Assembly: GCF_011297335.1 (NCBI RefSeq)
Contig: NZ_JAAOTJ010000003.1
Span: 62,001-126,000, forward strand
Reading direction: 5' to 3'
Source: Catellatospora methionotrophica
Lineage (GTDB): Bacteria > Actinomycetota > Actinomycetes > Mycobacteriales > Micromonosporaceae
Length of the DNA stretch: 64,000 bases
Each line of letters opens with the position of its first letter. Position 1 is the first letter of the stretch. The notes below the pieces were generated by a model that worked only from the letters and a program-made list of their open reading frames with translations, made no database searches and was not told the DNA's origin. Made by a program: the position numbers and the translations under genes. Of this stretch, positions 4,014-45,717 are shown piece after piece.

Positions 4014-7000
4014 TCAGCCCTCTTCGAAGCCGACGCCGACCACCGCGGTCCGGCCTGCCCGCACGAGCAGGCCACGGCCTGGCGGGAAGTCGGCACGGGG
4101 CAGTTTCATCGGGAACTCCGTGGTGAACACCCGGTCGCCGTCGCCGGAGTCGGGGCTGAGCGCCAGCCCGTAGCGGCTGCGTTTGAGCAGCTCCAGGGGT
4201 CCGGACTTGGAGCCCAGCGTGCTCGTGTCGCTCTCGCCGACGACGAAGCCACCCTGGTCCAGGCAGACGCGTACCAGTTCGGTGACCGCGTCGGCGGTGT
4301 CGGTGTCCATCGTGTACGCGGCGAACTCACCGACGTTCTCGATGAGGATCGCCTGGGGTGCGGTTGCGGTGAGCTGCTGGGCGAGTGTCTTGGCCTGGTC
4401 GCGTACCTCGTCGAGTCCGCACGCCTGGGTCCGCCACAGCGGCAGGTCGGCCAGGTCGGAGCGGCGGGCCGGGGACAGCAGGTGCAGGCCGAGGTCGGGT
4501 TTCCAGCGGTGCAGGGCGCGGGCGATCGTCCGTACCGCCGAGGTCCGGCCCGACTGCGGCGGTCCGGAGATGAGGAAGCCGCCCTGCGGGACCACGGTCG
4601 CCGGTGACAGGGTCTCGGCGAGCAGGCCGACGACGGGCAGGCCGTTGTCGGTCGACGGCAGCTGGCGGGCCAGTACCCGGTCGGGCATGCCGCGTACGGG
4701 TGGCGCTGCGGAGATGCCCGCGCGGATCATGGCGTCGGCGAACTCGCGTACCGCCGCTGCCTGCAGCTGTGTCTGGGGTGCGCCGCCGAGGAGCGCGACC
4801 TGCAGTTCCTCTCCGAGCAGCAGGCCCCGGCCGACCGGTGAGGAAGGCTGCAGGACGTCGACGGGCACGTCGAGGGCGCTGTAGTCGTTCGGGTCGGCCA
4901 TCCGCAGCACGACCCTGGTCTGCACCGCCGAGGCCAGGGCGGACGGGACCGACGCGGGCCGGTCGGCGGTGAGCAGCACGTGCAGGCCGACCGCGCGGCC
5001 GTCGCGGGCGAGCTGGCAGAAGGCGTCGAAGTGTTTGAGGCGGTCGACGGTCTCGTACGCCTGCCGGAACGCGTCGGTGCCGTCGACCAGGAGCAGGATG
5101 CGTGCCTCGTGCGGGGCGCCGGCCAGGGTGCGGTAGTCGGTGATGCTGCCCGCGCCGATCCGACTGTACCGCTCTCCCCGGTCGGCCACCAGCTGGGTGA
5201 GCCACTTGATGAGCCGGATGGTGCGGTCGGTGTCCGCGCCGCTGATGATGCTGCCGACGTGGGGCAGTTCCTCCAGCATGGCCAGGCCGCGGTTGCCGAA
5301 GTCCAGGCCGTAGACGTGGCAGGGTCCGCCGCGGACGGTGAACCCCGCGGCGATGGCCAGGGTGCGCAGCAGGGTGCTCTTGCCCGAGCCGCCGGTGCCG
5401 TAGACGGCGAGGTTTCCCTGCTCGTCGGGCCTGAACGCGATCGGCGGCTGGTCCTGCTCCTCGGGCTGGTCGCATACGCCGAAGACGAGTTGCGTGTCCT
5501 GGCGCAGGGTGGGCACCCTGGCCAGGTCGTGCACTCCGGCCAGGGCGGGCAGCCAGGGCTGGCGCGGGCGCGGGATCTGGGCCTCGCGGCTGGCGAGGCT
5601 GATCGCGGCGATCATCCGCTGGATGTCGGTCGCCCCTAGGTCGGCCTGGCTCTGGTCGACCTCGGGCGCCTCCCACACCACCCGCGCGCCGAAACGAAGT
5701 TCCTCCAGCACGATCTCCGGTGGTGGTGGCGCCTCGCTGGTCCAGCCGCCGGCGTAGCCGGTCTGGAACGGCACGAGCCGGCCGGGTCCGGTCTTGGAGA
5801 CCGCGCGGCCGGGGATCGCCGAGTCGAAGAACGCCGCCTGCGGCGAGCCGAGCACGTCGACGCTGTCGCCCTCGTCGGCGGTGCGCAGCGCCAGGCGCAG
5901 GTTGGTGTTGGCGCGCAGGTTGTCGGTGATCACGCCGGCCGGGCGCTGGGTCGCGAGGATGAGGTGTACGCCGAGCGAGCGGCCCCGCTGGGCCACGTCC
6001 ACGACGCCGTCGACGAACTCGGGCAGTTCCTTGACCAGGGCGGCGAATTCGTCGACGACGATCACCAGGCTGGGCGGCACGTCGGCGACGCCGGTCTTCT
6101 CCAGTTCGATGAGGTCCTTGACCTTGTGCAGCGCGAACTGCCTCTCCCTGCCGCGTAGTTCGGCCCGCAGTGAGGTCAGGGCGCGGCGGACCAGGTGCGG
6201 GTCGAGGTCGGTGAAGTTGCCGACCGTGTGCGGCAGCAGCGCCAGGTCCTTAAAGGCGGAGCCGCCCTTGTAGTCGATGAGCATGAACGTCAGCCGCTGC
6301 GGGCTGTGTGCTGCGGCCATGGCGAGGATCCACGCCTGCAGCAGTTCGCTCTTGCCGGAGCCGGTGGTCCCGCCGACCAGCGCGTGTGGGCCGTCCTCGC
6401 GCAGGTCGAGGGTGTGCGGGCCGAGCGCGGTGCGGCCGATCACGGCCCGCAGCGTGCCGGCTTTGCGGCTCGGGCCGGCTGCCGCGTACGGCCCGGTGAG
6501 GATCGACCGGTTCTGCACCCAGTTCTCCAGCACGTGCTCAGCGGTGGCCGTCACAGGTTCGTCGGCGACGGCCAGCAGGGAGACGGTCCGGGGCAGGTCG
6601 CTGTCGTCGTCGACGCGGGCTCCGACGTCCACCAGCGGCGACATGAGCCGCCCCACGGCTGCTGCGCCCTGGGCGTCGAGCAGTTCCACGGCCAGCGGTG
6701 TCACCGCGTCTCCGCTGTGGACGTACCCCACGGTGGCTTTCGTGGTCGATGCGGGGACCTCGACGAAGGTGCGGCACGCGGCCGGAAGCTGGGAGCTGTC
6801 ACCGGCTATCCAGAGCACGTGTACGCCGTGACGCCAGCCGCGCTCGCCGAGTTCGACCAGCCGGCTGCGATCCACCGGGGTCCGGTCCTCGACGAGTACG
6901 AGGATCGCCGGGGCGGTGGTCGGCTCCTGCTCGGCGGCGCGCAGGGCGACCTGTTCTTCCAGGGCTGAGACCAGCGCGACGGCTCCCTCATTGGTGCTGG

Positions 7001-28312: not shown

Positions 28313-29602
28313 TTGCTACGCAGAAACCTGATCACCGGTGCCGCCGCCGCAGCCGGCGTACTGGGCGCGGGCGTGCTCTCACAGCCCGCGTACGCCGCAC
28401 CGAAACCCCGCCGGGTGGAGACCGGACTCGACCGGCTGGTCGCCGACCGGTTCGCGACCCTGGCGGGCCAGAAGGTCGGCGTCGTGTCGAACCCGACCGG
28501 CGTCGACGCCGACTACCGGCACCTGGTCGACCTCATCCACGAATCCGGCCGGGTGAACCTGGTCGCGGCGTTCGGGCCCGAGCACGGCTTCCGCGGCTCC
28601 GCGCAGGCCGGCGGCAGCGAGGGCACCGGCGTCGACGCCCGCACCGGCGTCACCGTCTACGACGCGTACGGCGCCTCCCAGGCCAAGTGGGAGGAGCTGA
28701 TGACCCGGGCCGGGGTCGAGACCGTCGTGTTCGACATCCAGGACGTCGGGGTGCGTTTCTACACCTACATCTGGACCATGTACACCTCGATGGTCGCCGC
28801 CGCCCGGCTGGGCCTGCGCTACGTGGTGCTCGACCGGCCCAACCCGATCGGCGGGCGCGCCTACGGGCCGATGATGACCCCGGAGTTCACCTCCGGCGTC
28901 GGCCTCAAGGAGATCATCCAACAGCACGGCATGACGGTCGGCGAGCTCGCCCGCTTCTTCAACGCCGAGTTCCTGCCCGCCGAGGCCGGAGCCCAGGTGG
29001 AGCTGGAAGTGGTGGCGTGCAGGCACTGGAAGCGCGACATGTTCGCCGCCGACACCGACATGCCGTGGGTCATGCCCAGCCCGAACATGCCCACCCCGGA
29101 CACGGCGCTGACCTACCCGGGCACCGGCCTGTTCGAAGGTGTCGCCTCGATCAGTGAGGGCCGCGGCACCACCCGCCCGTTCGAGCTGGTCGGCGGACTG
29201 GCCACCGACTTCGACTACCACTGGTCGGACCGGCTCAACGCCCGCGACCTGCCCGGCGTCCGGTTCCGGGAGGCGTACTTCGTGCCGACGATCGCCGGGC
29301 ACCACCCGCCGCTGCTGAACAAGATGTGCGCGGGCGTCGAGGTGAAGGTGACCGACCGGGCCGCGTACGACCCGATCCGCACCGCGGTCGCGATGCTCGT
29401 GGAGGCGCGCAAGTACGCGGCGTTCGCGTGGCGGGCCGACGCCTACGACCCGGTGCGGCCGTACTGGGTCGACAAGCTCACCGGCTCGCCGCGGCTGCGC
29501 ACGATGATCGACGCGGGCGCCGACGTCGACGACGTGGTGGGCGCGTGGTCGGCGGAGCTGGCGGCGTTCGAACGGCGCCGCCGCCCGTACCTGCTCTACT
29601 GA
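28313..29602 (+). CDS. namZ: Exported exo-beta-N-acetylmuramidase NamZ (DUF1343)
   Basis: A 429-residue DUF1343/GH171 protein. NamZ (YbbC) of Bacillus subtilis cleaves MurNAc from the non-reducing end of peptidoglycan fragments after NagZ has removed GlcNAc. Motifs: KVGVVSNPTGVDADYRHL, AFGPEHGFRG, FDIQDVGVRFYTYIWTMY, VVLDRPNPIGG and ISEGRGTTRPFELVG. The N-terminus MLRRNLITGAAAAAG with two Arg and a hydrophobic run to SQPAYA looks like a Tat or Sec signal. Start is TTG, with AGGAG overlapping the nagZ stop. The third ybb enzyme, amidase AmiE, is not next to it. Confidence 0.92.
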   Translation: MLRRNLITGAAAAAGVLGAGVLSQPAYAAPKPRRVETGLDRLVADRFATLAGQKVGVVSNPTGVDADYRHLVDLIHESGRVNLVAAFGPEHGFRGSAQAGGSEGTGVDARTGVTVYDAYGASQAKWEELMTRAGVETVVFDIQDVGVRFYTYIWTMYTSMVAAARLGLRYVVLDRPNPIGGRAYGPMMTPEFTSGVGLKEIIQQHGMTVGELARFFNAEFLPAEAGAQVELEVVACRHWKRDMFAADTDMPWVMPSPNMPTPDTALTYPGTGLFEGVASISEGRGTTRPFELVGGLATDFDYHWSDRLNARDLPGVRFREAYFVPTIAGHHPPLLNKMCAGVEVKVTDRAAYDPIRTAVAMLVEARKYAAFAWRADAYDPVRPYWVDKLTGSPRLRTMIDAGADVDDVVGAWSAELAAFERRRRPYLLY

Positions 29603-32121: not shown

Positions 32122-32883
32122 ATGCAACCCGATCAACTGGCCCCCGACGGTTCAGTCACCCTCACCGACTACCTGACCGCCCTGCGCAAAGGGCCTACGC
32201 CGAAACCATCCGGCCTGATCTTCCCGGAGGACATGCTCGCGAAGTTCGACGAGTTGTACGCCTTCACCGAGACGAAGGCCCTGGAATCCGGGCATGCCCT
32301 GACCTTCGACCCAGCATCGGGCACGTTCGTCCACGGTGCCACCATCACCGGCAACCGCAACTCGATCAACCCGACGCTGATGGCCGGGATCGACGACCCG
32401 AACTGCTTCGGCTTCGTACACGCCCACCCGTCGGCGTCCATCGGATACCAGGGTGGGTACTGCCCTCACTCGGTCGAGGACCTGCTGACGTTCGAGTCCT
32501 ACAGGGACAGGCCGTACTTCTTCATGATCGTGGTGTCTGGTCCCGTGGTCTACACCATGGTGTACATCAAAGGCGCCTCCGTCTGGTCAGACGACGTGAA
32601 GAATCACCTATACCACCGGCTGCAGGAATACCAGGCAAAGGGACAGGAATTGCTCTACCCGGCTGCGGGTGGCCAGCAGGCATACGGCGATCTCGGCGTG
32701 AGCATCGAGGAGACCGAGGAGGCCGGGGAGGCCCTTCGGCAGCGGCTCATCGACAAGACACCGAACTTCGGCCAGTCGGTGGAGAAGATCTCCTACGACG
32801 AATGCACCGCGTTCAGCACTGCATACAATTATTTGTTCGCCATTCAGCGTCGTCCTCAACAGAGCGTCTGCCAGCTCCTGTGA
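32122..32883 (+). CDS. JAB/MPN-like metallopeptidase-fold protein
   Basis: A 253-residue soluble protein with RBS GAGGAGATCCG before the ATG. The central block FGFVHAHPSASIGYQGGYCP followed by HSVEDLLTF resembles the JAMM zinc motif (H-x-H-P ... S-x-x-D), with about seven more residues than usual between the His pair and the Ser/Asp pair. An upstream Glu candidate is in LYAFTETKALESG. JAB proteins are Zn peptidases that cut isopeptide or C-terminal bonds. With the altered spacing, activity is uncertain. The C-terminal 90 residues (GVSIEETEEAGEALRQRLID) are helical and unassigned. Confidence 0.6.
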   Translation: MQPDQLAPDGSVTLTDYLTALRKGPTPKPSGLIFPEDMLAKFDELYAFTETKALESGHALTFDPASGTFVHGATITGNRNSINPTLMAGIDDPNCFGFVHAHPSASIGYQGGYCPHSVEDLLTFESYRDRPYFFMIVVSGPVVYTMVYIKGASVWSDDVKNHLYHRLQEYQAKGQELLYPAAGGQQAYGDLGVSIEETEEAGEALRQRLIDKTPNFGQSVEKISYDECTAFSTAYNYLFAIQRRPQQSVCQLL

Positions 32884-33114: not shown

Positions 33115-33786
33115 ATGGAACTCGCCAGACGCCGTGAACTCGCCCGCCGGGCGCTGGACGGCTACGACAGCGGCCCGGACGCCACCAACCGGGCGCTCGC
33201 CGGTGCCCAGGCGAGGATCGCCGATGCTGCGGGGCTGATCCTGGTCGAGGGGGTCAGCGACCAGATCGCCGTGGAGACCGCCGCGGCGGGCCGTGGCCGT
33301 GATCTGGTCGCCGAGCGTGTCGTCGTCGTGCCGATCGGCGGGGCGCACGCCATCGGCCGTTTCCTGACCGAGCTCGGCCCGCTGGCGACCCGGCTGCGCC
33401 TGGGCGGGCTGTGCGACGTACGCGAGGAGGAGATCTTCCGGCGGGCACTGACCGCCGCGGGCCTCGGCTCGCCGGGCACGCGCGCCGACATGGCGCGCCT
33501 GGGTTTCCACGTCTGCGTCGACGACCTCGAGCAGGAGTTGCTGCGCGCGGTGGGCGTCACCGGGGTCGAGGCCCTGTTCGCCTCGCAGGGTGATCTGGGA
33601 TCGTTCCGCACGTTGCAGGGCCAGCCGGCCTGGCGCGGCCAGGATCCCGAGCGGCAGCTGTGGCGGTTCCTGCGCGCGGGCTCGCACCGCAACCTGCGCT
33701 ACGCCCGGCTGCTCACCGAAGCGGCGCTGTCCACCGACGCTCTGCCCGCTCCGCTTGCCGCGCTGCTCGACGGAACCGCCGACTAG
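33115..33786 (+). CDS. TOPRIM-domain protein of the OLD-like nuclease group
   Basis: A 223-residue protein. [18 protein letters not shown] carries the TOPRIM glutamate, [16 protein letters not shown] the second strand, and [18 protein letters not shown] the Asp motif. These match the stand-alone TOPRIM proteins of actinobacteria related to the C-terminal domain of OLD nucleases. The ABC-type ATPase half of OLD proteins is absent, so it is either a single-domain nuclease or acts with an unlinked partner. The ATG at 33115 starts right where similarity begins. Its TAG stop lies inside the CTAG that borders the IS element. Confidence 0.75.
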
Positions 33787-34283
33787 GTCGTGTATCGAAG
33801 TGCGTGTAGCCACTCGTTGATCGCCGTGATGTGGATCGTGGCGAGGTACCGGACGGCGAGCTTGTCGTAGCAGGTGGCCATGGCGCGGTGGCGTTTGAGC
33901 CGGTTGATGCCGCACTCGACAGCGTGACGCTGCCGGTAGGCGACCGGGTCGAACATCGGTGGTGGCCGGCCACCGGCCTGGCCGCGTCGACGGCGGTGGC
34001 CGGCCCGGTTTGCCCGGGTCGGGAAGGTGGCATTGATCCCGCGTCGACGCAACAGGTCGCGGTTGGCACGGCTGCTGTATGCCTTGTGCCAGGATCCGTA
34101 GCAGTCAGGTACGTCGCGCCACGGCGCACCTACCCGGACACGCCACCGGATACCGTCGATGAGCTGCCGTTTCGTCCATGCCGACGGCCGACCCACCCGC
34201 GCGCCTGCCGGTAGCAACGGCTCCAGGACCGCCCACTGCGCGTCGGTGAGATCGTGCCGCCTCGTCACCGTTAAGGTAGCCAC
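33783..34283 (-). pseudogene. Internally deleted IS5-family transposase
   Basis: The protein starts like an IS5-type transposase ([18 protein letters not shown], then [20 protein letters not shown]) and ends like one ([20 protein letters not shown], then [20 protein letters not shown]), but the middle is missing. [14 protein letters not shown] joins the N-terminal domain directly to the segment that normally follows the second catalytic Asp. The frame is kept, yet two of the three DDE residues are lost, so it cannot transpose by itself. The frame is open to a GTG at 34340; the GTG at 34283 is nearer the conserved start. The stop codon uses the CTAG flank. Confidence 0.85.
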
Positions 34284-34381
34284 GAGGTCTCCGGTATACA
34301 GGTTCTGCTTGGTCGCTGAGCCCTTTACCGGAGACCTCACTCCTTATCGATCATCGACACCTAACGACTTCGACACATGCG
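33787..34381 (-). mobile_element. Deleted IS5-type element flanked by CTAG
   Basis: About 595 bases bounded by CTAG at 33783-33786 and 34382-34385. Imperfect inverted ends: GTGTATCGAAGT on the left against GTGTCGAAGT within GCGCATGTGTCGAAGTC on the right, about 12 of 17 positions matching. CTAG fits the YTAR target and 4-base duplication known for the IS5 group; TA or CTA duplications cannot be excluded because CTAGGT is shared at both ends. With its ends kept and the transposase core deleted, it is MITE-like. Confidence 0.7.
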
Positions 34382-34879
34382 CTAGGTGCGCGCAGTGGGT
34401 GTCAACAGCGGACCCTGAGCGCTGCGCAGTTTGCGTACCGCCACGCCGATCAGCCAGCTCGCCGGGAAGTAGCCGATCTGGCGGGAGTCGTAACTCGCCG
34501 TGGCGTTGTCGCCGACCAGCACCATCATCCCTGGTGGCACGACCGTTTCCGGGCGGTCGGCGAGTGCGGGTACCGACGCGCGCGGCACGGGGTCTCCGGG
34601 CAGTGCCAACACCCGTTTGAGCATGAGGCGGCGAGGATCGGCGTCGCCTACCGTGTCACGGGCTGGTGGTGCGGTGTTCACGCGTGGGCGGCGGACCACC
34701 ACCACCTGTCCGATACGCAGGTGGGCCGTCCCGAATCTCCTGACCACCAGCACGAGGTCGCCCTCCCTGTATGCCGGCAGCATCGACCGCCCCGTTACCG
34801 CTGCCGCCACCAGGAACCGGTTCGCGAGAATCAGCACCATCACGGCGACCAGTACCATCGCACCTATCAGCACCCACAT
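34382..34879 (-). CDS. S26 signal peptidase of the Cys-rich peptide cluster
   Basis: A 165-residue type I signal peptidase. One N-terminal helix (MWVLIGAMVLVAVMVLILAN), the catalytic Ser in VTGRSMLPAYREGD (Ser32), the general-base Lys in LMLKRVLALPGD (Lys88) and the GDNATASYDSRQIG box are present, so it should be active. It lies 11 bases after the ABC exporter and is the last gene of the cluster. A dedicated peptidase here suggests it removes the leader of the 12-Cys peptide, possibly after ASA. The stop codon lies in the CTAG target of the IS element. Confidence 0.88.
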   Translation of the reverse strand: MWVLIGAMVLVAVMVLILANRFLVAAAVTGRSMLPAYREGDLVLVVRRFGTAHLRIGQVVVVRRPRVNTAPPARDTVGDADPRRLMLKRVLALPGDPVPRASVPALADRPETVVPPGMMVLVGDNATASYDSRQIGYFPASWLIGVAVRKLRSAQGPLLTPTART

Positions 34880-34890
34880 GGTCTTCTGCC

Positions 34891-36723
34891 TCAGTCCAGC
34901 CCAGACGTGGCGGGCACGTCGACAAGATAACCCTGCGCCTGGCGCATGAACAGGCGAGCGTATGAACCGCCACCTTCTATGAGTGCGTCGTGGTTGCCCT
35001 GTTCCACCACACGGCCCCCCTCGATCACAGCGATCGAGTCGGCGTCACGGATGGTGTTCAGCCGGTGGGAGATCAGTACGCTGGTGCGGCCCGTGCGAAG
35101 CGTGTGCAGCCGGCGATGGATCTGGTACTCGGCCTCTGCGTCCAGCCCCGACGAGGGCTCGTCCAGGATGAGCAGGTCCAGGTTCTGCCGCAGGAACCCT
35201 CGGGCGAGCGCGATCCGCTGCCACTGGCCGCCGGACAGCGACACCCCGGCGGTGTTCGGGTCGTCGTCGGGGAACGTGCGGCTCAGCAACGTCTCGTAGC
35301 CCTTTGGCAGGTTGTCGACAACCTCGTGTATGTCGGCGCTGGTCGCCGCAGCGATGATGCTGCGCCGGTCGGACAACTGTGCCAGGTCGCCGAGCCCGAT
35401 GTTCTCGGCGGCCGACAGGTCATATGTCATGAAGTCCTGGAAGACAGCGCCGATCCGCAACCGTAGCTCCTCTACGGGAAAGTCACGAATGTCCACGCCG
35501 TCCCATCGGATGCTGCCGCGGACCGGATCGTAGAACCGGCAGAGCAGCTTGATCAAGGTGCTCTTGCCGGCACCGTTGAGCCCGACGAGCCCGAGCGCCT
35601 TGCCTGCCGGAATGTGCAGGTTGACCCCGTTGAGAACCCATGGATGCTCGGCGGAGTACCGGAACCAGACGTCACAGAACTCGATGCCGTGACGGAGCGG
35701 CTCCACGGCCGTGGTCCGGGCCGGGGCCGAGAGATCCGGTGGTGCGGCGACCACAGTCCGATAATGATCGAAAAGGGCAAGCGCCTGGTGCAGTGCGCCG
35801 ATACGGTCGATGGCTCCCGACAGGCCGCCGACCACGCCCCCGGAGGCGGCGACGACGATCGCTATGTCGCCGACGCTGAGTCGGCCGGCGCCGGCCGACA
35901 GCACCGCCCAGACGATGGTGGCACCCGCGACCAGGGCGCCCAGCACGGCCATCGTGCCGTGCGAGCTCAGTTCGCGGCGGTCCATCTGCCGCTGCTCGCG
36001 ATGGATGGCCATGAGCTCGCGCAGCATCCGCAGGATGAAGAAGTCCGCGAGGCCGAAAAGGCGGATCTCCTTGGCGGCGTCCATCCGGGTGAGCAGGCCC
36101 TCGTAGAACATCTCCCGACGTTCCACCCGGCTCAGGCGCCAGATCATCGCCGTGCGCCGCCGTGACAGGTCCAGTTGGAGCAGGATGGTCGGCACGGCGG
36201 CGATGAGTGCGAGCAACATCAACCATGGGTTGAGCACGATCAGCGCGGTCAGGAACCCGAAGGTGGTGACCAGCCCCTGCCCGATAGCCAGCAGCGCGGT
36301 GAAGATCGTCGAAGGGCCGCCCCGGCCGGCCTGGGTGGCCATCCGGAGCTGGTCGTAGAAGACCGGGTCTTCGAGCCGGGCGAGGCCGCTCAGGCGCTTG
36401 ACCGACCTCGCGAGCGCTTCCTGGGCGACCAGCACGATGGCCCGTCCCATCTGCGCGGCCGCGTACTGCATCAGGTAGGGAATCATCGCGGCCAGCAGCC
36501 CGGCAACGGCCATCGCCACCGCGAGGCCGAGCAGCCGCCGCAGGTCCCTGTCGCCTGCCGCGATCCCGTCTATCACCAGTTTGCTCAACCACGCGAGCCC
36601 GATCGGCAGCACGCCTGCCAGTAGGGCCGAGAGCACCTGGACGGCCGCGCTGCCGCTGGCGGCACGCCATACCAGCAGCAGCGCTTGTCGCATCCCCCCG
36701 GGGGTGCGCGTCGTCGTGTCCAT
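34891..36723 (-). CDS. ABC exporter (membrane plus ATPase domains)
   Basis: A 610-residue half-transporter. Residues about 20-320 hold six helices and 340-600 the ATPase: Walker A VGLNGAGKSTLIKLL, signature GVSLSGGQWQRIALARGFL, Walker B LDLLILDEPSSGLDAEAE and the switch His in SVLISHRLNTIRDAD. No C39 peptidase domain is present, so leader removal must come from another protein, consistent with the S26 peptidase next door. The ATG at 36723 is 8 bases after the thioredoxin gene; the open frame further upstream is antisense-like and rejected. It most likely exports the Cys-rich peptide. Confidence 0.92.
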   Translation of the reverse strand: MDTTTRTPGGMRQALLLVWRAASGSAAVQVLSALLAGVLPIGLAWLSKLVIDGIAAGDRDLRRLLGLAVAMAVAGLLAAMIPYLMQYAAAQMGRAIVLVAQEALARSVKRLSGLARLEDPVFYDQLRMATQAGRGGPSTIFTALLAIGQGLVTTFGFLTALIVLNPWLMLLALIAAVPTILLQLDLSRRRTAMIWRLSRVERREMFYEGLLTRMDAAKEIRLFGLADFFILRMLRELMAIHREQRQMDRRELSSHGTMAVLGALVAGATIVWAVLSAGAGRLSVGDIAIVVAASGGVVGGLSGAIDRIGALHQALALFDHYRTVVAAPPDLSAPARTTAVEPLRHGIEFCDVWFRYSAEHPWVLNGVNLHIPAGKALGLVGLNGAGKSTLIKLLCRFYDPVRGSIRWDGVDIRDFPVEELRLRIGAVFQDFMTYDLSAAENIGLGDLAQLSDRRSIIAAATSADIHEVVDNLPKGYETLLSRTFPDDDPNTAGVSLSGGQWQRIALARGFLRQNLDLLILDEPSSGLDAEAEYQIHRRLHTLRTGRTSVLISHRLNTIRDADSIAVIEGGRVVEQGNHDALIEGGGSYARLFMRQAQGYLVDVPATSGLD

Positions 36724-36731
36724 GCCCAGCG

Positions 36732-37283
36732 TCAGAACGCCGCGAGCGCCGTCAGCCGTTCGACGCGGTAGCTGGAGTCCAGCACCACGCCGTGCTCGTC
36801 GACCAGCCCTACCGCGGGGAAGGCGTCGACCTGGAATGCTTTCGCGAGCGGCCCGTTGCCGGACTCCACGACGACCTTGGCCGCGTCGACCATCGGCCGG
36901 GCGAACTCGGTGGCCAGGTCGGCGTCCCCGACGACCACGGCGATCACCCGTGCCTTGCCGCCCGGCATTGCCTCGGCGAACTTCACGAACTCCGGGGCCT
37001 GCTCTTTGCACGGTTCGCAGGTCGGTGAGAAGAAACCGACGAGCGTCGGACCTTCGAGCAGGTCCAGTGCGACGGCGTCGCCATCGAGCGTGACGGCCGA
37101 GAATCCCCCCACCGTCGACCCCTTGGGCGCCATCATCTCGGCGGCGGCGTCGGAGTGGCTGCCACCCCTGTCGGCCAGAAGCTCGGAGTGAGTACGCAGA
37201 CGCTTGATTACGCCGAGGGTCAGGACGAGATCCACGGTGCAGATCACGCCGACGAAGACGACAGCGGCGATGAGATATGGCAT
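36732..37283 (-). CDS. TlpA-like membrane-anchored thioredoxin
   Basis: A 183-residue protein. The N-terminal helix (PYLIAAVVFVGVICTVDLVL) anchors a thioredoxin-fold domain whose active site is VGFFSPTCEPCKEQAPEF (C-x-x-C), followed by the cis-Pro region VDAFPAVGLVDEHG. TlpA-type proteins act outside the membrane in thiol-disulfide exchange. With the MauE-like gene upstream it would form a redox pair that sets or edits the disulfides of the 12-Cys peptide. Start ATG at 37283 has TAGGAGGAACACAT before it, a strong ribosome binding site. Confidence 0.9.
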   Translation of the reverse strand: MPYLIAAVVFVGVICTVDLVLTLGVIKRLRTHSELLADRGGSHSDAAAEMMAPKGSTVGGFSAVTLDGDAVALDLLEGPTLVGFFSPTCEPCKEQAPEFVKFAEAMPGGKARVIAVVVGDADLATEFARPMVDAAKVVVESGNGPLAKAFQVDAFPAVGLVDEHGVVLDSSYRVERLTALAAF

Positions 37284-37294
37284 ATGTGTTCCTC

Positions 37295-37861
37295 CTAGGA
37301 TGAGTGATCGGCACGGCGGCGCGTGGTGCCCGTTTGCTCGGACGCGAAGAGCGCCGCGATGTCGTCCAGGTGGATGAGCACGACCGCGGCCATTGCGCCG
37401 CAGCACACGGCCAGGCCTGCGCCAGCCGGGTTGAGGGCTGCTCGCGTGCCGATGGCCGCGGTGAGTAGGCCGGTGAGCGCAATCACGGTGAGCAGCAGGT
37501 TGCGTACTACGTGTATGCGGCTCATCCGGGAGACGCCGCTGCCGAAGCAGCGGCAGCTCGGTGCGAGACCGCGCCGGAGCGCTCGTACGATGGCGACTAC
37601 GAAGACCAGGAGCACGCCTGCGGCGATGAGCAGTCCCCAGCGAAATGTCGCGGAGAGCACGGTCAGGCCGACGATGGCCGCCTCGGCAAGCACGGTGGCC
37701 GCGGCCAGCAGGCGGGCCGCGGCTGCGGTGGGCTGCCCGAACCCGTACAGGGAGTCGGTGAATTCGGAGAACGCCGCGCGGGTGCGCACCTTGCCGACCA
37801 CGGAAACGGTGAACACCACGATGATTGCGCAGCGTGCACCGACCGTCCAGAGTTCCCCCAT
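37295..37861 (-). CDS. MauE/DoxX-like redox membrane protein
   Basis: A 188-residue protein with four to five helices. The start MGELWTVGARCAIIVVFTVS and the central RRGLAPSCRCFGSG motif are typical of MauE, the membrane protein that passes electrons to periplasmic thioredoxins during disulfide formation in methylamine dehydrogenase. A second pair of Cys (GLAVCCGAM) lies in a later helix. Start ATG at 37861 has GGAAGGGTTCGTGAC before it. It lies 78 bases after the Cys-rich precursor gene, beyond a hairpin, and 11 bases before the TlpA-like gene. Confidence 0.85.
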   Translation of the reverse strand: MGELWTVGARCAIIVVFTVSVVGKVRTRAAFSEFTDSLYGFGQPTAAAARLLAAATVLAEAAIVGLTVLSATFRWGLLIAAGVLLVFVVAIVRALRRGLAPSCRCFGSGVSRMSRIHVVRNLLLTVIALTGLLTAAIGTRAALNPAGAGLAVCCGAMAAVVLIHLDDIAALFASEQTGTTRRRADHSS

Positions 37862-37902
37862 GTCACGAACCCTTCCAAACCGTATGCGCGAATGGATGGT
37901 GA

Positions 37903-37932
37903 CGGCTCCGCGACCGACCGGTCACGGAGCCG
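37903..37932 (-). other. Hairpin between precursor peptide and redox/export genes
   Basis: A 13-base stem with one mismatch (CGGCTCCGCGACC against GGTCACGGAGCCG) and a 4-base loop lies 8 bases after the precursor stop. No T-tract follows. Such a hairpin often acts as a partial terminator or 3' stabiliser so that precursor mRNA exceeds the downstream enzymes. Confidence 0.55.
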
Positions 37933-37939
37933 TGACCGG

Positions 37940-38191
37940 CTAGCAGATGCAGACGGTGGGGTAGCTGGGCTGGCAGGTTCCCCTGCAATACCAGTGACAT
38001 CCGTCGCATTCGCAGCGGTCGTAGTACCGGGTGCCGAACGAGCCTGCGCCGCAGGCGCGACAGCCGCAGTACGGGGTGGTGACCTTGCCGGCCTGACCGG
38101 CGCATTCACAACCCGGGTCGGCCGAAGCCTCGACACGAGGAACGACCATAGCCAGCAGGCGATCGCCAACTGATTCGAGCATTCGTAGCAT
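37940..38191 (-). CDS. 12-cysteine precursor peptide, candidate disulfide-rich bacteriocin
   Basis: An 83-residue peptide. The leader MLRMLESVGDRLLAMVVPRV (amphipathic, no Cys) is followed by EASA, a possible signal peptidase site (A-S-A before D25). The remaining 59 residues start at DPG and hold 12 Cys, six of them in C-x-C pairs (CEC, CGC, CEC, CIC) plus single Cys near Gly, Trp and Tyr, ending VCIC. It has no lanthipeptide, thiopeptide or sactipeptide enzyme nearby, only redox, export and leader-cutting genes. I infer a ribosomally made peptide with up to six disulfides, comparable in logic to fulvocin-C-type bacteriocins. ATG at 38191 has AAAGGGGGATAAC before it; the longer frame to 38269 has no start signal. 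Confidence 0.78.
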   Translation of the reverse strand: MLRMLESVGDRLLAMVVPRVEASADPGCECAGQAGKVTTPYCGCRACGAGSFGTRYYDRCECDGCHWYCRGTCQPSYPTVCIC

Positions 38192-38239
38192 GTTATCCCC
38201 CTTTCTCTGCCACGATTCAGCACATGCGTGCCAAGAGCC

Positions 38240-38269
38240 ACTCTCGCCTCTGACCGACGGATATGTCAA
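38240..38269 (-). promoter_or_regulatory. Candidate promoter of the Cys-rich peptide operon
   Basis: On the minus strand a perfect TTGACA (38269-38264) is followed after 18 bases by GAGAGT (38245-38240), 48 bases before the precursor start. The -35 is ideal, the -10 weak, which would suit a promoter that needs an activator bound at the dyad just upstream. Confidence 0.4.
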
Positions 38270-38282
38270 TACCTAAATATAG

Positions 38283-38318
38283 TTGCAATACGCAAATAAA
38301 AGTATTTGCATTGTGCAA
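38283..38318. promoter_or_regulatory. 36-base dyad operator candidate
   Basis: TTGCA-4-GCAAATA-AAAG-TATTTGC-4-TGCAA. Both arm pairs are perfect and share the same centre (38300.5). The dyad stands in the most A/T-rich segment of the window, about 14 bases upstream of the candidate -35 of the peptide operon. Position suits an activator or a repressor of that operon. Confidence 0.55.
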
Positions 38319-38503
38319 CAAAGGCGCTCGACCGGTTCCACGAAGATCGTTGATCTATCCACGTCCGACGATGAGCTGGCTCGCGAAATTTATTCAAGTA
38401 GCCTGCCACCAGCAGATATGCTTCTGAGGATGAGTCACGACGAATGTTCGGGGCCACTTGCCGCCCGACGCTGTGATAACTTGCCTCCAAACAGGAGGAT
38501 TAT

Positions 38504-42747: not shown

Positions 42748-44475
42748 TCAGCCGGTCGCCAGCCGTGCCAGGACCTGCTGCATGGCCCCGGGATCGCCGA
42801 CGACGTCGGGTACGTAGGTCCACCGCAGGCCCACCCAGGGATCGCCGATGTGGTCGTCGGGCACGGCCGACAACCGCAGGAACGCCTGCCACATCACCGA
42901 GATCAGCGGGCTCGCCCCGATCACGTCGGCCGGATCGGCGACCACCACCACGCCCACGCCCGCCATCGGGCCCAGCTCCAGCAGGTACCGGAGCTGGCCC
43001 ACCGCACGCTCGTCCAGGCCGTACGGGAAGTCGTGCAGCACCAGCACGTGCTGTGCGGGCGTCTCGCGCACGGCGAGCATGTCCATCGCGTTGCCGCCGC
43101 GCGCCATCCGGGTCAGGTCGACCCTGGCCACGAGGGTGTTCAGCAGCTCGGCGAGCTGCTGCGGGGTGTCGGCTGAACCGCCGACGCCCATGCCCGCCGC
43201 TGAGCCGGTCAGGGGCGCGAGGCTGCGCAGCGCCGCCCCGGCGCCCACGGGATCGCCGACGTGGATGGTGATCCCGCCCGGCGGGCACGAGGCCAGCAGC
43301 CGGATCATCAGCGCCCGCGCCGCGGCACGGGCGGCGTCGCGGTTGCCCGACCCGGAGTCGATCCACAGGGGTGTGGTCAGGGGCAGCCGGACCAGCATGG
43401 GCAGCAGCAGCTCGGGCGCGTCACCGCCGTAGAGGTCGCCGACGCGGACGGCGACGGCGTTCCTGGTCGGCGGGTTCCAGCCGCGCCAGACGTGGCTGTC
43501 CCAGTGCGCCATCGTCGGCGGGAGCGAGGCCCGCAGTTCACGCACCTCGCCGAGGAGTTGGCCCATGTCGCGGCGGTAGTCGGCCTCTGCACGGCGGACG
43601 AGATCGTCGTAGCGGCTCTCCGCGGTCGCCTGCTTGGCGTGGGTGAGCGGCGAGTTACGCGTCGCGGGGTCGGCGAACACCGCACTGAGCTCGTCGTCGC
43701 GCCGCTGCTCGGCGTAGGAGGTCGCCGATTTGTACGCGGCCGTCGAGCGCGCCGCGTCCTCGTAGATGCTCCACGACAGGTCGTAGAGCTGCTCCTCAGC
43801 CTGGGCGTCGACCAGTGCCCCGGAGCCGGCCACGCCGGTTCCCAAGCCGGGGCCCGACCAGGCCTGTGGGGCCGGCGCCGGGGGCTGCGCGCCTGCCGGA
43901 CCCGCGGTTTCGCCCGGGGCGCGCAGACCGCGGTGGGCCCTGCTGGATACGGCAGGTGCCGCAGGTGCCGCAGGTGCGGCAGGTGCCGTGGCACCGTGGG
44001 CGAGCGCCAGTTCGGGCAGTCCGCCGTCGTAGCCCTGGCCTACCGCGCGTAGTTTCCAGGCGCCGTCTCGCCGGTAGAACTCCCAGGCGATCAGTGCGCG
44101 CTCGCCGCATAGACCGGTCATTGTGAAGGTGAACAGCTCACCCCCGCCGCCGGTGTGCACCCGTGCCGTCGGGGCGACGGCGAGGCTGTGGGCGGCGGCG
44201 TCGATGCTCACGACCGCCAGCACCCGGGCGACGTCGGCGGGCACGACGTCCAGCGCGATGGTGAGGTGCGACGGCACGTCCACGGTGGCCGCGTGCCAGG
44301 AAACACCGTCGGCGACGGGCGACGCGGCGCACACCAGGTCGGTGTGCGCGCGTACGCGACCCGTCGTCGACAGCAGCAGGGCGCAGAGCTCCATCGTGCC
44401 CGCGACGTCGACCGTGACCTGCAGCGACGGGTCGGACAGTGTGGTGTTCTGGCCCTTTGCCAGCGCTATCGACAT
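42748..44475 (-). CDS. TerD domain fused to a degenerate FtsK-like ATPase domain
   Basis: A 575-residue protein. Residues 1-160 are a TerD/CABNR domain (LSDPSLQVTVDVAG, GAWKLRAVGQGYDGGLPELA) without the acidic Ca-binding run. After a Pro/Ala linker comes a helical part, then an FtsK/EccC-like domain (about 350-575): LYGGDAPELLLPMLVRLPLT, a P-loop remnant IDSGSGNRDAARAAA that lacks the Lys, and a Walker-B-like HVLVLHDFPYGLDERAV. It is therefore probably a non-hydrolysing scaffold. It is the last gene of the ter locus and lies 12 bases after the tandem TerD gene. Confidence 0.8.
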   Translation of the reverse strand: MSIALAKGQNTTLSDPSLQVTVDVAGTMELCALLLSTTGRVRAHTDLVCAASPVADGVSWHAATVDVPSHLTIALDVVPADVARVLAVVSIDAAAHSLAVAPTARVHTGGGGELFTFTMTGLCGERALIAWEFYRRDGAWKLRAVGQGYDGGLPELALAHGATAPAAPAAPAAPAVSSRAHRGLRAPGETAGPAGAQPPAPAPQAWSGPGLGTGVAGSGALVDAQAEEQLYDLSWSIYEDAARSTAAYKSATSYAEQRRDDELSAVFADPATRNSPLTHAKQATAESRYDDLVRRAEADYRRDMGQLLGEVRELRASLPPTMAHWDSHVWRGWNPPTRNAVAVRVGDLYGGDAPELLLPMLVRLPLTTPLWIDSGSGNRDAARAAARALMIRLLASCPPGGITIHVGDPVGAGAALRSLAPLTGSAAGMGVGGSADTPQQLAELLNTLVARVDLTRMARGGNAMDMLAVRETPAQHVLVLHDFPYGLDERAVGQLRYLLELGPMAGVGVVVVADPADVIGASPLISVMWQAFLRLSAVPDDHIGDPWVGLRWTYVPDVVGDPGAMQQVLARLATG

Positions 44476-44487
44476 CGTGCGGCCTGG

Positions 44488-45717
44488 TCAGGCCGAGACG
44501 AAGTGGTTGAGCACCGGCAGTGCTTCCATCGGGTTCTTGGCGTGGATCGGCTCGCCGATGGCGTGCATCTTCCAGCCGGAGGCGTCGCGGTAGAGCTTGG
44601 CCATCACCATGCCGGTCGCCGCACTGCCACCCGACAGCGTGTAGCGGGCGAGTTCGGTGCGGGTGGTCTCGTCGACCAGGCGGCAGAACGCGTTGGCGAC
44701 CTGGGTGAAGGTGTGGCCCTTGTACGACGTCACGATGAAGATGATCGAGGTGACGTGGGCCGGGACGCGGGCGAGGTCGAGGATGACCGACTCGTCGTCG
44801 CCGTCGCCGTCGCCGGTGCGGTTGTCGCCGGTGTGCATCACCGAGCCGTCCTTGGACCGCAGCTGGTTGTAGAAGACCAGGTCGACCGGCTGCCGGTCGG
44901 CGAACATGATCGCCGTGGCGTCGAGGTCGATGTCGACCTCGCGGCTGCCGAACATGCTCTTCTTCTTGAGCGGGTCCCAGCCCAGGCCCATGCGCACCAT
45001 GGTGAGCGTCGAGCCGTTCTGCTTGGCCAGTGAGACGCGCTGTCCCTTGACCAGGCTGACCGGTGCGCCGGGACGCCCGGTGGTCTGCATCGCGGGCGGC
45101 GCCGCGGGTGCGGGGGCGGCGGGTGCAGGGGCGAACGGTGCGGCGGCGACGGGAGCCGGGCGGGCCGCGGGGATCGTCGGCGGCGCGGCCGGCGGTGCGG
45201 TGGGCGCGGCCGGCTGGTCGACCACGACACCGTGGTCGGAGATCAGTTCGTCGAGGCCGCCGGCGTAGCCCTGGCCGACCGCGCGCGCCTTCCAGGCGCC
45301 TTCACGCCGGTACACCTCGATCGCCACGACGATGCTCTCCGTGGCCAGGCCGGTGATCTGGTAGGCCGCGATCTCGGCGCCGCCGCCGTCGGTCACCCGC
45401 GCCATGGGGGGCCCGTACTGCCCGAACCGGGTCCCGGTGCCGTCGAGGCTCACCACGATCCGGACCTTGTCGATGTCGTTCGGCACGGCGGGCAGGTTGA
45501 GGTCGATCTTCCAGGCGGTGCTGCCGGGAATCTGGCGGACCGAGACACCCGGCCCGTCGGGCTGGTTGTAGAACACGAAGTCCGCGTCGGAGCGCACCTT
45601 GCCGCTGGAGGTGACCAGCAGCGCCGACAGATCGGCGGGCGTACTGGTCTCGACCGTCACCTGCAGCTGGCCGGTCGGCACCGGCATGTTCTGCCCCTTG
45701 ACCAAGGTTGTGCTCAT
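44488..45717 (-). CDS. Tandem TerD-domain stress protein
   Basis: A 409-residue protein with two TerD domains (1-165 and 220-409) joined by a Pro/Ala linker. The second has the full signature: SLVKGQRVSLAKQ, GLGWDPLKKKSMFGSREVDI, HTGDNRTGDGDGDDESV (Ca-binding) and ELARYTLSGGSAATGMVMA. The first lacks the acidic run. TerD proteins bind calcium and act in tellurite and general envelope or DNA stress responses. It overlaps the upstream HAD gene by ATGA (45714-45717). Confidence 0.88.
   Translation of the reverse strand: MSTTLVKGQNMPVPTGQLQVTVETSTPADLSALLVTSSGKVRSDADFVFYNQPDGPGVSVRQIPGSTAWKIDLNLPAVPNDIDKVRIVVSLDGTGTRFGQYGPPMARVTDGGGAEIAAYQITGLATESIVVAIEVYRREGAWKARAVGQGYAGGLDELISDHGVVVDQPAAPTAPPAAPPTIPAARPAPVAAAPFAPAPAAPAPAAPPAMQTTGRPGAPVSLVKGQRVSLAKQNGSTLTMVRMGLGWDPLKKKSMFGSREVDIDLDATAIMFADRQPVDLVFYNQLRSKDGSVMHTGDNRTGDGDGDDESVILDLARVPAHVTSIIFIVTSYKGHTFTQVANAFCRLVDETTRTELARYTLSGGSAATGMVMAKLYRDASGWKMHAIGEPIHAKNPMEALPVLNHFVSA

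Follow-up and report, generated by a model that had tools for sequence, protein, structure and literature searches.

The genome of Catellatospora methionotrophica (Micromonosporaceae; RefSeq assembly GCF_011297335.1) has five minus-strand genes in a row, head to tail. The genes lie at positions 34382-38191 of a 64,000-nucleotide stretch of contig NZ_JAAOTJ010000003.1 (positions 62,001 to 126,000 of the forward strand; hereafter the window), and they encode a small cysteine-rich precursor, a MauE-like membrane redox protein, a TlpA-like thioredoxin, an ATP-binding cassette (ABC) exporter and a protease of the S26 family. In our view the locus probably produces a single secreted mini-protein rich in disulfides, which it also exports and folds by oxidation. 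The parts of the locus are as follows (aa, amino acids):

37940..38191, minus strand: precursor gene, 83 aa with 12 Cys, the first Cys being residue 28 (from the translation and homologues)
38197..38204, minus strand: predicted ribosome-binding site AAAGGGGG of the precursor gene, read from the sequence
38120..38191, minus strand: leader codons 1-24, MLRMLESVGDRLLAMVVPRVEASA, with predicted cleavage after A24 (conserved motif)
37943..38119, minus strand: core codons 25-83, 59 aa, 12 Cys, four CxC motifs
37295..37861, minus strand: MauE-like membrane redox protein, 188 aa, CxCFG motif, PF07291
36732..37283, minus strand: TlpA-like membrane-anchored thioredoxin, 183 aa, C89-x-x-C92
34891..36723, minus strand: ABC exporter, 610 aa, membrane domain and ATPase
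34382..34879, minus strand: S26 signal-peptidase-like protease, 165 aa, SMLP and KRVLALPGD catalytic motifs, TIGR02227 and PF10502

A good ribosome-binding site, GAGAAAGGGGGATAAC, precedes the precursor ATG, and the exporter ATG stands just past the TlpA stop. Among Pfam families, the MauE-like protein matches PF07291 (E 3.5e-22, 79.5 bits against a cut-off of 27), the TlpA-like protein Redoxin (E 2.6e-09) as well as AhpC-TSA and Thioredoxin, the exporter ABC_tran (E 1.1e-28) and the protease Peptidase_S26 (E 2.4e-20). Signal peptidase I is marked by a catalytic serine in SMxP and a catalytic lysine in KRVxxxPGD; the window protease has both motifs (SMLP, KRVLALPGD) and passes the curated cut-off of the signal peptidase I model TIGR02227 (68 versus 47 bits). 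An identity as SodX, the maturation protease of nickel superoxide dismutase, was rejected, since TIGR02754 reaches 43.3 bits, under its curated cut-off of 63.25. No Peptidase_C39 appears among the Pfam matches of the exporter, and the NHLM and bacteriocin_ABC models match it only past their peptidase part and far under cut-off. The precursor belongs to no Pfam, NCBIfam or PHROG family; ten of its homologues likewise have no Pfam or NCBIfam family, and two NCBIfam chance matches (E 0.033 and 0.16) fall far under the cut-offs. The cassette contains no radical SAM, P450 or other tailoring gene. Translation and profile matches thereby bear out the division of labor that a first-pass annotation had read from these five genes: a Cys-free leader with all 12 Cys in the mature part, a MauE-like protein together with a TlpA-like C-x-x-C protein, an ABC exporter devoid of its own peptidase, a dedicated signal peptidase, and no enzyme known to tailor ribosomally synthesized and post-translationally modified peptides (RiPPs).

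The set is a real, conserved system. A relative from another genus has the same four genes next to a precursor of 42% identity, and a TlpA-profile scan of one genome per species yielded 69 loci, all from actinomycetes according to their record titles; the scan used one short peptide pattern, and the 69 are not exhaustive. Precursors were accepted here at a leader match of at least 12 bits with at least three Cys, and on this basis a precursor with the matching leader is present in 65 loci, MauE in 57, and the exporter and S26 in 64 each, with precursor, TlpA, ABC and S26 together in 59 and all five genes in 48. The gene order of the window is the commonest (32 loci, plus 6 with a second precursor). 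Sequence motifs are kept as well: CxxC in 68 of the 69 TlpA homologues, CxCFG in 56 of 57 MauE homologues, SMxP in all 64 S26 homologues and the catalytic lysine motif in 48 of these 64 by pattern and in the other 16 by eye. The leader test returned nothing among 17,481 open reading frames (ORFs) of the same loci reversed, nor among the 866 ORFs of the rest of the window; the profile was built from 13 leaders, at least four of whose source loci (L047, L051, L081, L090) are among the 69, so that the test set is not fully independent. Conservation of the small frame beside the other four genes, on which the first-pass annotation had staked its case, is what the other genus and the 65 of 69 loci display. 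One further locus (L012) was dropped for want of a convincing precursor.

Leader, core and a candidate export route

For comparison of the precursors, 89 sequences were reduced to 71 at a core similarity below 70%, the cores being cut at the first Cys, which makes the leaders Cys-free by construction. The leaders follow a consensus of approximately L..[GA]DR-L-L...V-P-x3-A-x-A, and P-x3-A-x-A, a signal-peptidase-type site, is present in 65 of the 71; the window leader ends PRVEASA/D, with the slash marking the predicted cut. Mean pairwise identity is 43% in the leaders and 26% in the cores when Cys-Cys columns are left out (1,500 random pairs from 98 sequences), so these precursors combine a conserved leader with a variable core, as a ribosomal RiPP precursor does.

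The AxA end of the signal peptidase I type, and the presence of a signal-peptidase family protease, could be taken to mean that Sec handles the leader as an odd signal peptide, leaving the ABC protein another job, be it immunity or unrelated export. A Sec signal peptide has a hydrophobic h-region of about 7-15 residues. Among the 71 leaders, the longest strictly hydrophobic run has a median of 3 and a maximum of 7 residues (6 in the window), and the longest run free of D, E, K, R and P a median of 6 and a maximum of 10; the best 10-residue hydropathy of the window leader is 1.55, versus 3.18 for the TlpA anchor and 3.64 for the S26 anchor. By this simple hydropathy measure the leader is not Sec-like. 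Acidic residues in mid-leader and a strong co-occurrence across genomes with one ABC subfamily (see below) speak against Sec as well, and we give this alternative hardly any weight. An AlphaFold2 model (33-row alignment) places a helix at residues 2-16 with a predicted local distance difference test (pLDDT) score of about 80, and a non-Sec helix with an AxA end is in keeping with an exporter and an S26 protease that are both dedicated to the precursor. The first-pass proposal of S26-type processing after A24 gains support from comparison, the spacing of P-x3-A-x-A being fixed and the gene set conserved.

In the route that we propose, the 24-residue leader would be a short helix serving as an address tag (L..vgDRLL..VVP), and the dedicated ABC exporter, rather than Sec, would recognize it. 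The membrane-bound S26 protease would cut after the A-x-A that closes the leader, during or after export, and the TlpA-like thioredoxin and MauE, both membrane proteins, may form or proofread six disulfides outside the cell. Since the leader is constant and the Cys-rich core variable, one such station could serve many cores. The export route, the order of the steps and the direction of the redox reaction are those that the gene set and its motifs suggest.

The cores appear suited to disulfides. Cys counts are even in 67 of the 71 precursors (4 Cys in 6, 6 in 23, 8 in 30, 10 in 6 and 12 in 2), these sequences being related by descent, so that the statistical strength would be overstated if they were taken as independent; in a later set of orphan precursors, the count is even in 27 of 27. 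The maximum of 12 is reached only by the window peptide and that of Actinomadura barringtoniae (L092), and 32 of the 71 have fewer than 8. From this parity we infer six disulfides in the window peptide. The disulfide-rich product put forward in the first-pass annotation is likewise favored by the comparison, through the even-Cys rule, the conserved gene set and the lack of a tailoring enzyme.

Could the thiols serve another purpose? Four CxC motifs and 12 Cys within 59 residues would suit a metal-binding peptide of metallothionein or zinc-ribbon type, whose thiols MauE and TlpA would keep reduced, and a phmmer search returned 20 Protein Data Bank sequences up to E 1, all of them eS31/S27a-type ribosomal zinc ribbons (best E 9e-4). 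But this match is weak and covers one short Cys-rich stretch, CxC is not general in the precursor family, extracellular thiols are hard to keep reduced, and metal binding needs no parity, whereas even counts from 4 to 12 prevail in the 67 of 71; we therefore regard metal binding as improbable. Parity bears equally on the idea that MauE and TlpA install some other cross-link, for example a thioether, in place of plain disulfides. A modification of RiPP precursors by the products of mauE was proposed by the decRiPPter authors (Kloosterman et al. 2020; PMC7794033). Yet MauE and TlpA are both thiol redox families, the cassette lacks any radical SAM, P450 or other tailoring gene, and even counts point to Cys-Cys pairs, so that this cross-link, too, appears highly improbable, and we retain a disulfide-rich mini-protein as the preferred product.

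Several odd-numbered precursors merit a description of their own. At locus L204, two leader-type ORFs adjoin each other beside TlpA and S26, one having 5 Cys and the other 7 (5303-5679, plus strand; leader scores 22.3 and only 8.7 bits); with 12 Cys together, they are perhaps a disulfide-linked heterodimer, or perhaps one of them is no precursor. Precursors with 7 Cys occur at L036, L058 and L101, of which the L058 and L101 cores look similar by eye; their odd count may be inherited, and may reflect a covalent homodimer or a free thiol.

One exporter and dispersed precursors

Across 300 genomes of the window's own taxonomic family, a leader-type precursor is found in 108 and the exporter (counted at E below 1e-120) in 122: both occur in 105, the precursor only in 3, the exporter only in 17 and neither in 175. 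Some genomes hold many precursors, with at least 22 matches each in G017, G035 and G864, 19 in G872 and 12 in G014. G014, G017, G872 and G856 have one close exporter each (46-48% identity), the other ABC proteins found there being at most 34% identical, and in G014 and G856 this exporter is part of a complete MauE-TlpA-ABC-S26 cassette that has no precursor alongside. Not every precursor-rich genome has such a single station: there are two close exporters in G035 and three in G049, and G864 has 17 TlpA genes.

We inspected 20 orphan precursor loci (12 from G017, 5 from G014 and 3 from G035). None of them has MauE, TlpA or S26 within about 5 kb; four give weak matches, and nothing stronger, to other ABC proteins (E 1.8e-8 to 2.6e-24). 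Neighbors were listed for 16 of these loci, and no neighboring gene family is common to more than three of them. Taken together, the simplest reading of these genomes is that in some relatives one exporter-protease apparently serves many unlinked peptides in trans. More broadly, we lean, by a modest degree, towards an actinobacterial secretion route with a constant non-Sec leader, in which one ABC-S26 pair with MauE/TlpA would handle a dispersed dozen to more than 20 hypervariable disulfide mini-proteins per genome, as an independently evolved counterpart of venom- or defensin-like repertoires. The sole recurring pair of neighbors was seen at L177 and L187 of G017, where orphan precursors lie near the same two small genes (36% and 26% identical).

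Four such loci are present in the window genome itself, with precursors of 12, 8, 8 and 8 Cys; within the stretches examined, L020 showed no MauE and L151 no S26. Catellatospora coxensis and C. vulcania carry a precursor identical to that at another locus of this genome. Farther afield, profile A1 (two sequences) gave matches in 10 of 394 genomes of the class, its own included (best 14 candidates per genome). Profile A3, which holds 33 of 56 eligible sequences and in which several rows start at the profile match and not at a start codon, gave matches in 3 of 396 genomes of the phylum, again including its own (best 16 candidates per genome). Both counts are possibly low, and the evidence for a wide spread beyond the family comes from the named loci of the 69-locus scan and not from a rate. 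Of the three A3 genomes, G598 has a match with in-frame stops, which is not believed.

A number of observations weigh against the reading given here, in its narrower or its wider form. Of the 69 loci, 4 yielded no precursor, 5 no ABC, 5 no S26 and 12 no MauE, some of these lying at contig ends, and the genomes and loci are related, so that none of our counts are independent events. At the cut-offs used, 17 of the 122 exporter genomes have no precursor and 3 of the 108 precursor genomes no exporter, and the 3 of 396 genomes found with A3 are few. The G017 exporter lies beside S26 only, with TlpA and MauE elsewhere in the genome, and each precursor-rich genome has 3 to 9 matches to PF07291, the MauE family; with several MauE genes and this split layout, a single station is clearest for the exporter. 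Four of the 71 precursors have odd Cys counts (three with 7, one with 9), and in ten further new precursors the count is even in 8, the others being the L204 neighbors with 5 and 7. The AlphaFold2 model of the core stays below pLDDT 50 and carries no fold information. Export, cleavage and disulfides are predictions from sequence, and no immunity gene was identified beside the cassette.

This last point touches the function of the product. That it antagonises other cells is a guess, and the alternative that the mini-protein is a protease inhibitor, a signal or a surface or host-interaction peptide, rather than an antimicrobial, competes only with that step. Besides the lack of an immunity gene at the cassette, all 20 orphan loci are without nearby MauE, TlpA or S26 and no neighbor family recurs in more than 3 of 16, which would be unusual for bacteriocins with dedicated immunity, and a constant leader followed by hypervariable cores also suits a repertoire for recognition or inhibition. 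Conversely, there is no evidence for such an activity either, and a patchy presence and occurrence on plasmids (28 records with TlpA matches) also fit antagonism. We rate a non-antimicrobial role as a serious contender that falls somewhat short of an even chance; production and export of a disulfide-rich mini-protein is our preferred account of the locus under either function.

If this account is true, the leader (L..lgDRLL..VP...A.A) would by itself find overlooked small secreted disulfide proteins of actinomycetes, including those from unlinked precursor genes, which neighborhood-based RiPP miners would miss. The cassette would then amount to a compact kit of exporter, protease and redox pair for disulfide-knotted peptides in Gram-positive bacteria, and the role of MauE-TlpA would become testable, given a client that is small and defined and lends itself to mass spectrometry.

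Noncoding elements and neighborhood

Two noncoding features accompany the precursor gene:

37898..37937, minus strand: RNA hairpin in the gap between precursor and mauE (inverted repeat and folding energy)
38282..38319, no strand assigned: imperfect inverted repeat of 17 nt, putatively operator-like, upstream of the precursor, 82% complementary

An 81-nt stretch containing the hairpin has a minimum free energy of -42.2 kcal/mol (z -4.3); a stable hairpin at this place is what one would expect if the cell makes more of the precursor than of its helpers. Hairpins with z<-3 follow 23 of the 71 precursors, the window included, versus 1 of 70 control stretches taken 200 nt further on. The upstream palindrome is A/T-rich and imperfect (TTGCA....GCAAATA...TATTTGC....TGCAA). 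Its pattern occurs once in the whole genome, with no sign of a regulon-wide box, and we therefore propose no regulon. A sigma-70 promoter scan, uninformative in actinomycetes, found none.

The cassette has the character of an accessory element. In four genomes of the same genus that have the gnd-pgi pair neighboring it in the window, DNA similarity to the window breaks off no more than about 10 bp from the gnd stop codon; the 19 kb examined in them contain nothing cassette-like, and a TlpA of this kind (E below 1e-20) occurs in 6 of 10 same-genus genomes. Two of the genus (G001 and G007, loci L154 and L155) have exporter and TlpA, with precursor, MauE and S26 unrecognised in the 18 kb examined. 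On the opposite flank of the cassette, directly downstream of S26, lies the remnant of an IS4/5-family transposase (33783-34340, minus strand; DUF4096 and DDE_Tnp_1_2 pieces), by which a 13-nt inverted repeat is seen (34284-34296 / 34326-34338).

A tblastn search of plasmids with the precursor gave no match, while relatives of the TlpA-like protein are found on 28 plasmid records (25 from Streptomyces, 2 from Embleya and 1 from Nonomuraea). Two of these plasmid regions combine TlpA, ABC and S26 with one precursor (8 Cys) and two precursors (6 and 6 Cys), respectively, annotated as hypothetical, and MauE is annotated in one of the two. On plasmid pF1D18A of Streptomyces clavuligerus (L161), tandem 6-Cys precursors (4836-5042 and 5128-5328, plus strand) stand ahead of MauE-TlpA-ABC-S26; as a large plasmid of a well-studied species, it offers a convenient test system.

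Elsewhere in the window, a small protein with an OLD-like TOPRIM domain (PF20469; 32989-33786, plus strand) lies beside a 253-aa ORF without a Pfam match (32122-32883), and the two are possibly a defence remnant. Further away are a NamZ exo-beta-N-acetylmuramidase (28313-29602, plus strand) and two consecutive TerD-domain proteins (42748-45717, minus strand). A Pfam scan of ten window neighbors found no methylamine dehydrogenase.

Comparison with known systems

The first-pass annotation had likened the locus to fulvocin C-related loci in actinobacteria. Fulvocin C is a small Cys-rich bacteriocin of Myxococcus fulvus, and the titles and passages of the fulvocin literature covered here show no tie to MauE-TlpA-ABC-S26 or to actinobacterial loci. 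Conotoxins and plant cysteine-rich peptides also join a constant N-terminal part to a hypervariable core on a Cys scaffold; we liken them by analogy and claim no homology, the bacterial leader being non-Sec and paired with an ABC exporter. Double-glycine bacteriocins have a short leader that is read by a C39-containing ABC exporter and removed on export, frequently with disulfides in the core. In contrast, the window has no GG motif and no C39 on its exporter, and it has a separate S26 and an AxA site. The maturation of methylamine dehydrogenase by MauD/MauE, cited in the decRiPPter report (PMC7794033), is a further parallel. It likewise involves a membrane MauE with a thioredoxin-like partner and a disulfide-rich client, whereas in the window the client would be a small peptide of variable sequence for which a separate exporter exists.

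Closer in print than fulvocin C are the mauE families of decRiPPter, at least as passages of that report present them. It describes three candidate RiPP families of Streptomyces with mauE, one of which contains mauD too; in each of the three the precursor has 8 Cys or more, and a role in precursor modification is suggested. The strict filter of decRiPPter demanded that a transporter and a peptidase be encoded within or near the cluster, and only Streptomyces was mined (Kloosterman et al. 2020; PMC7794033). The window has the same combination of MauE (PF07291), a 12-Cys precursor and an ABC exporter with S26. The passages of PMC7794033 on these families mention neither a leader family nor a rule for cleavage, and neither Cys parity nor a repertoire served in trans. 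Among the open-license matches listed, only decRiPPter was relevant and no experimental work was found; the non-Sec AxA leader rule, the even-Cys rule and dispersed repertoires with one exporter are absent from these matches. Streptomyces viridosporus T7A is named with the mauE families (PMC7794033), and in S. viridosporus NRRL 2414 (our locus L060) we find a 10-Cys precursor, MauE, TlpA and ABC, followed by the contig end. The overlap at the level of this species suggests that the mauE families and the cassette described here are the same system. A system of this kind had thus already been flagged computationally, judging from those passages, and is not new; the window locus adds a member to a family that is large and has hardly been characterised.

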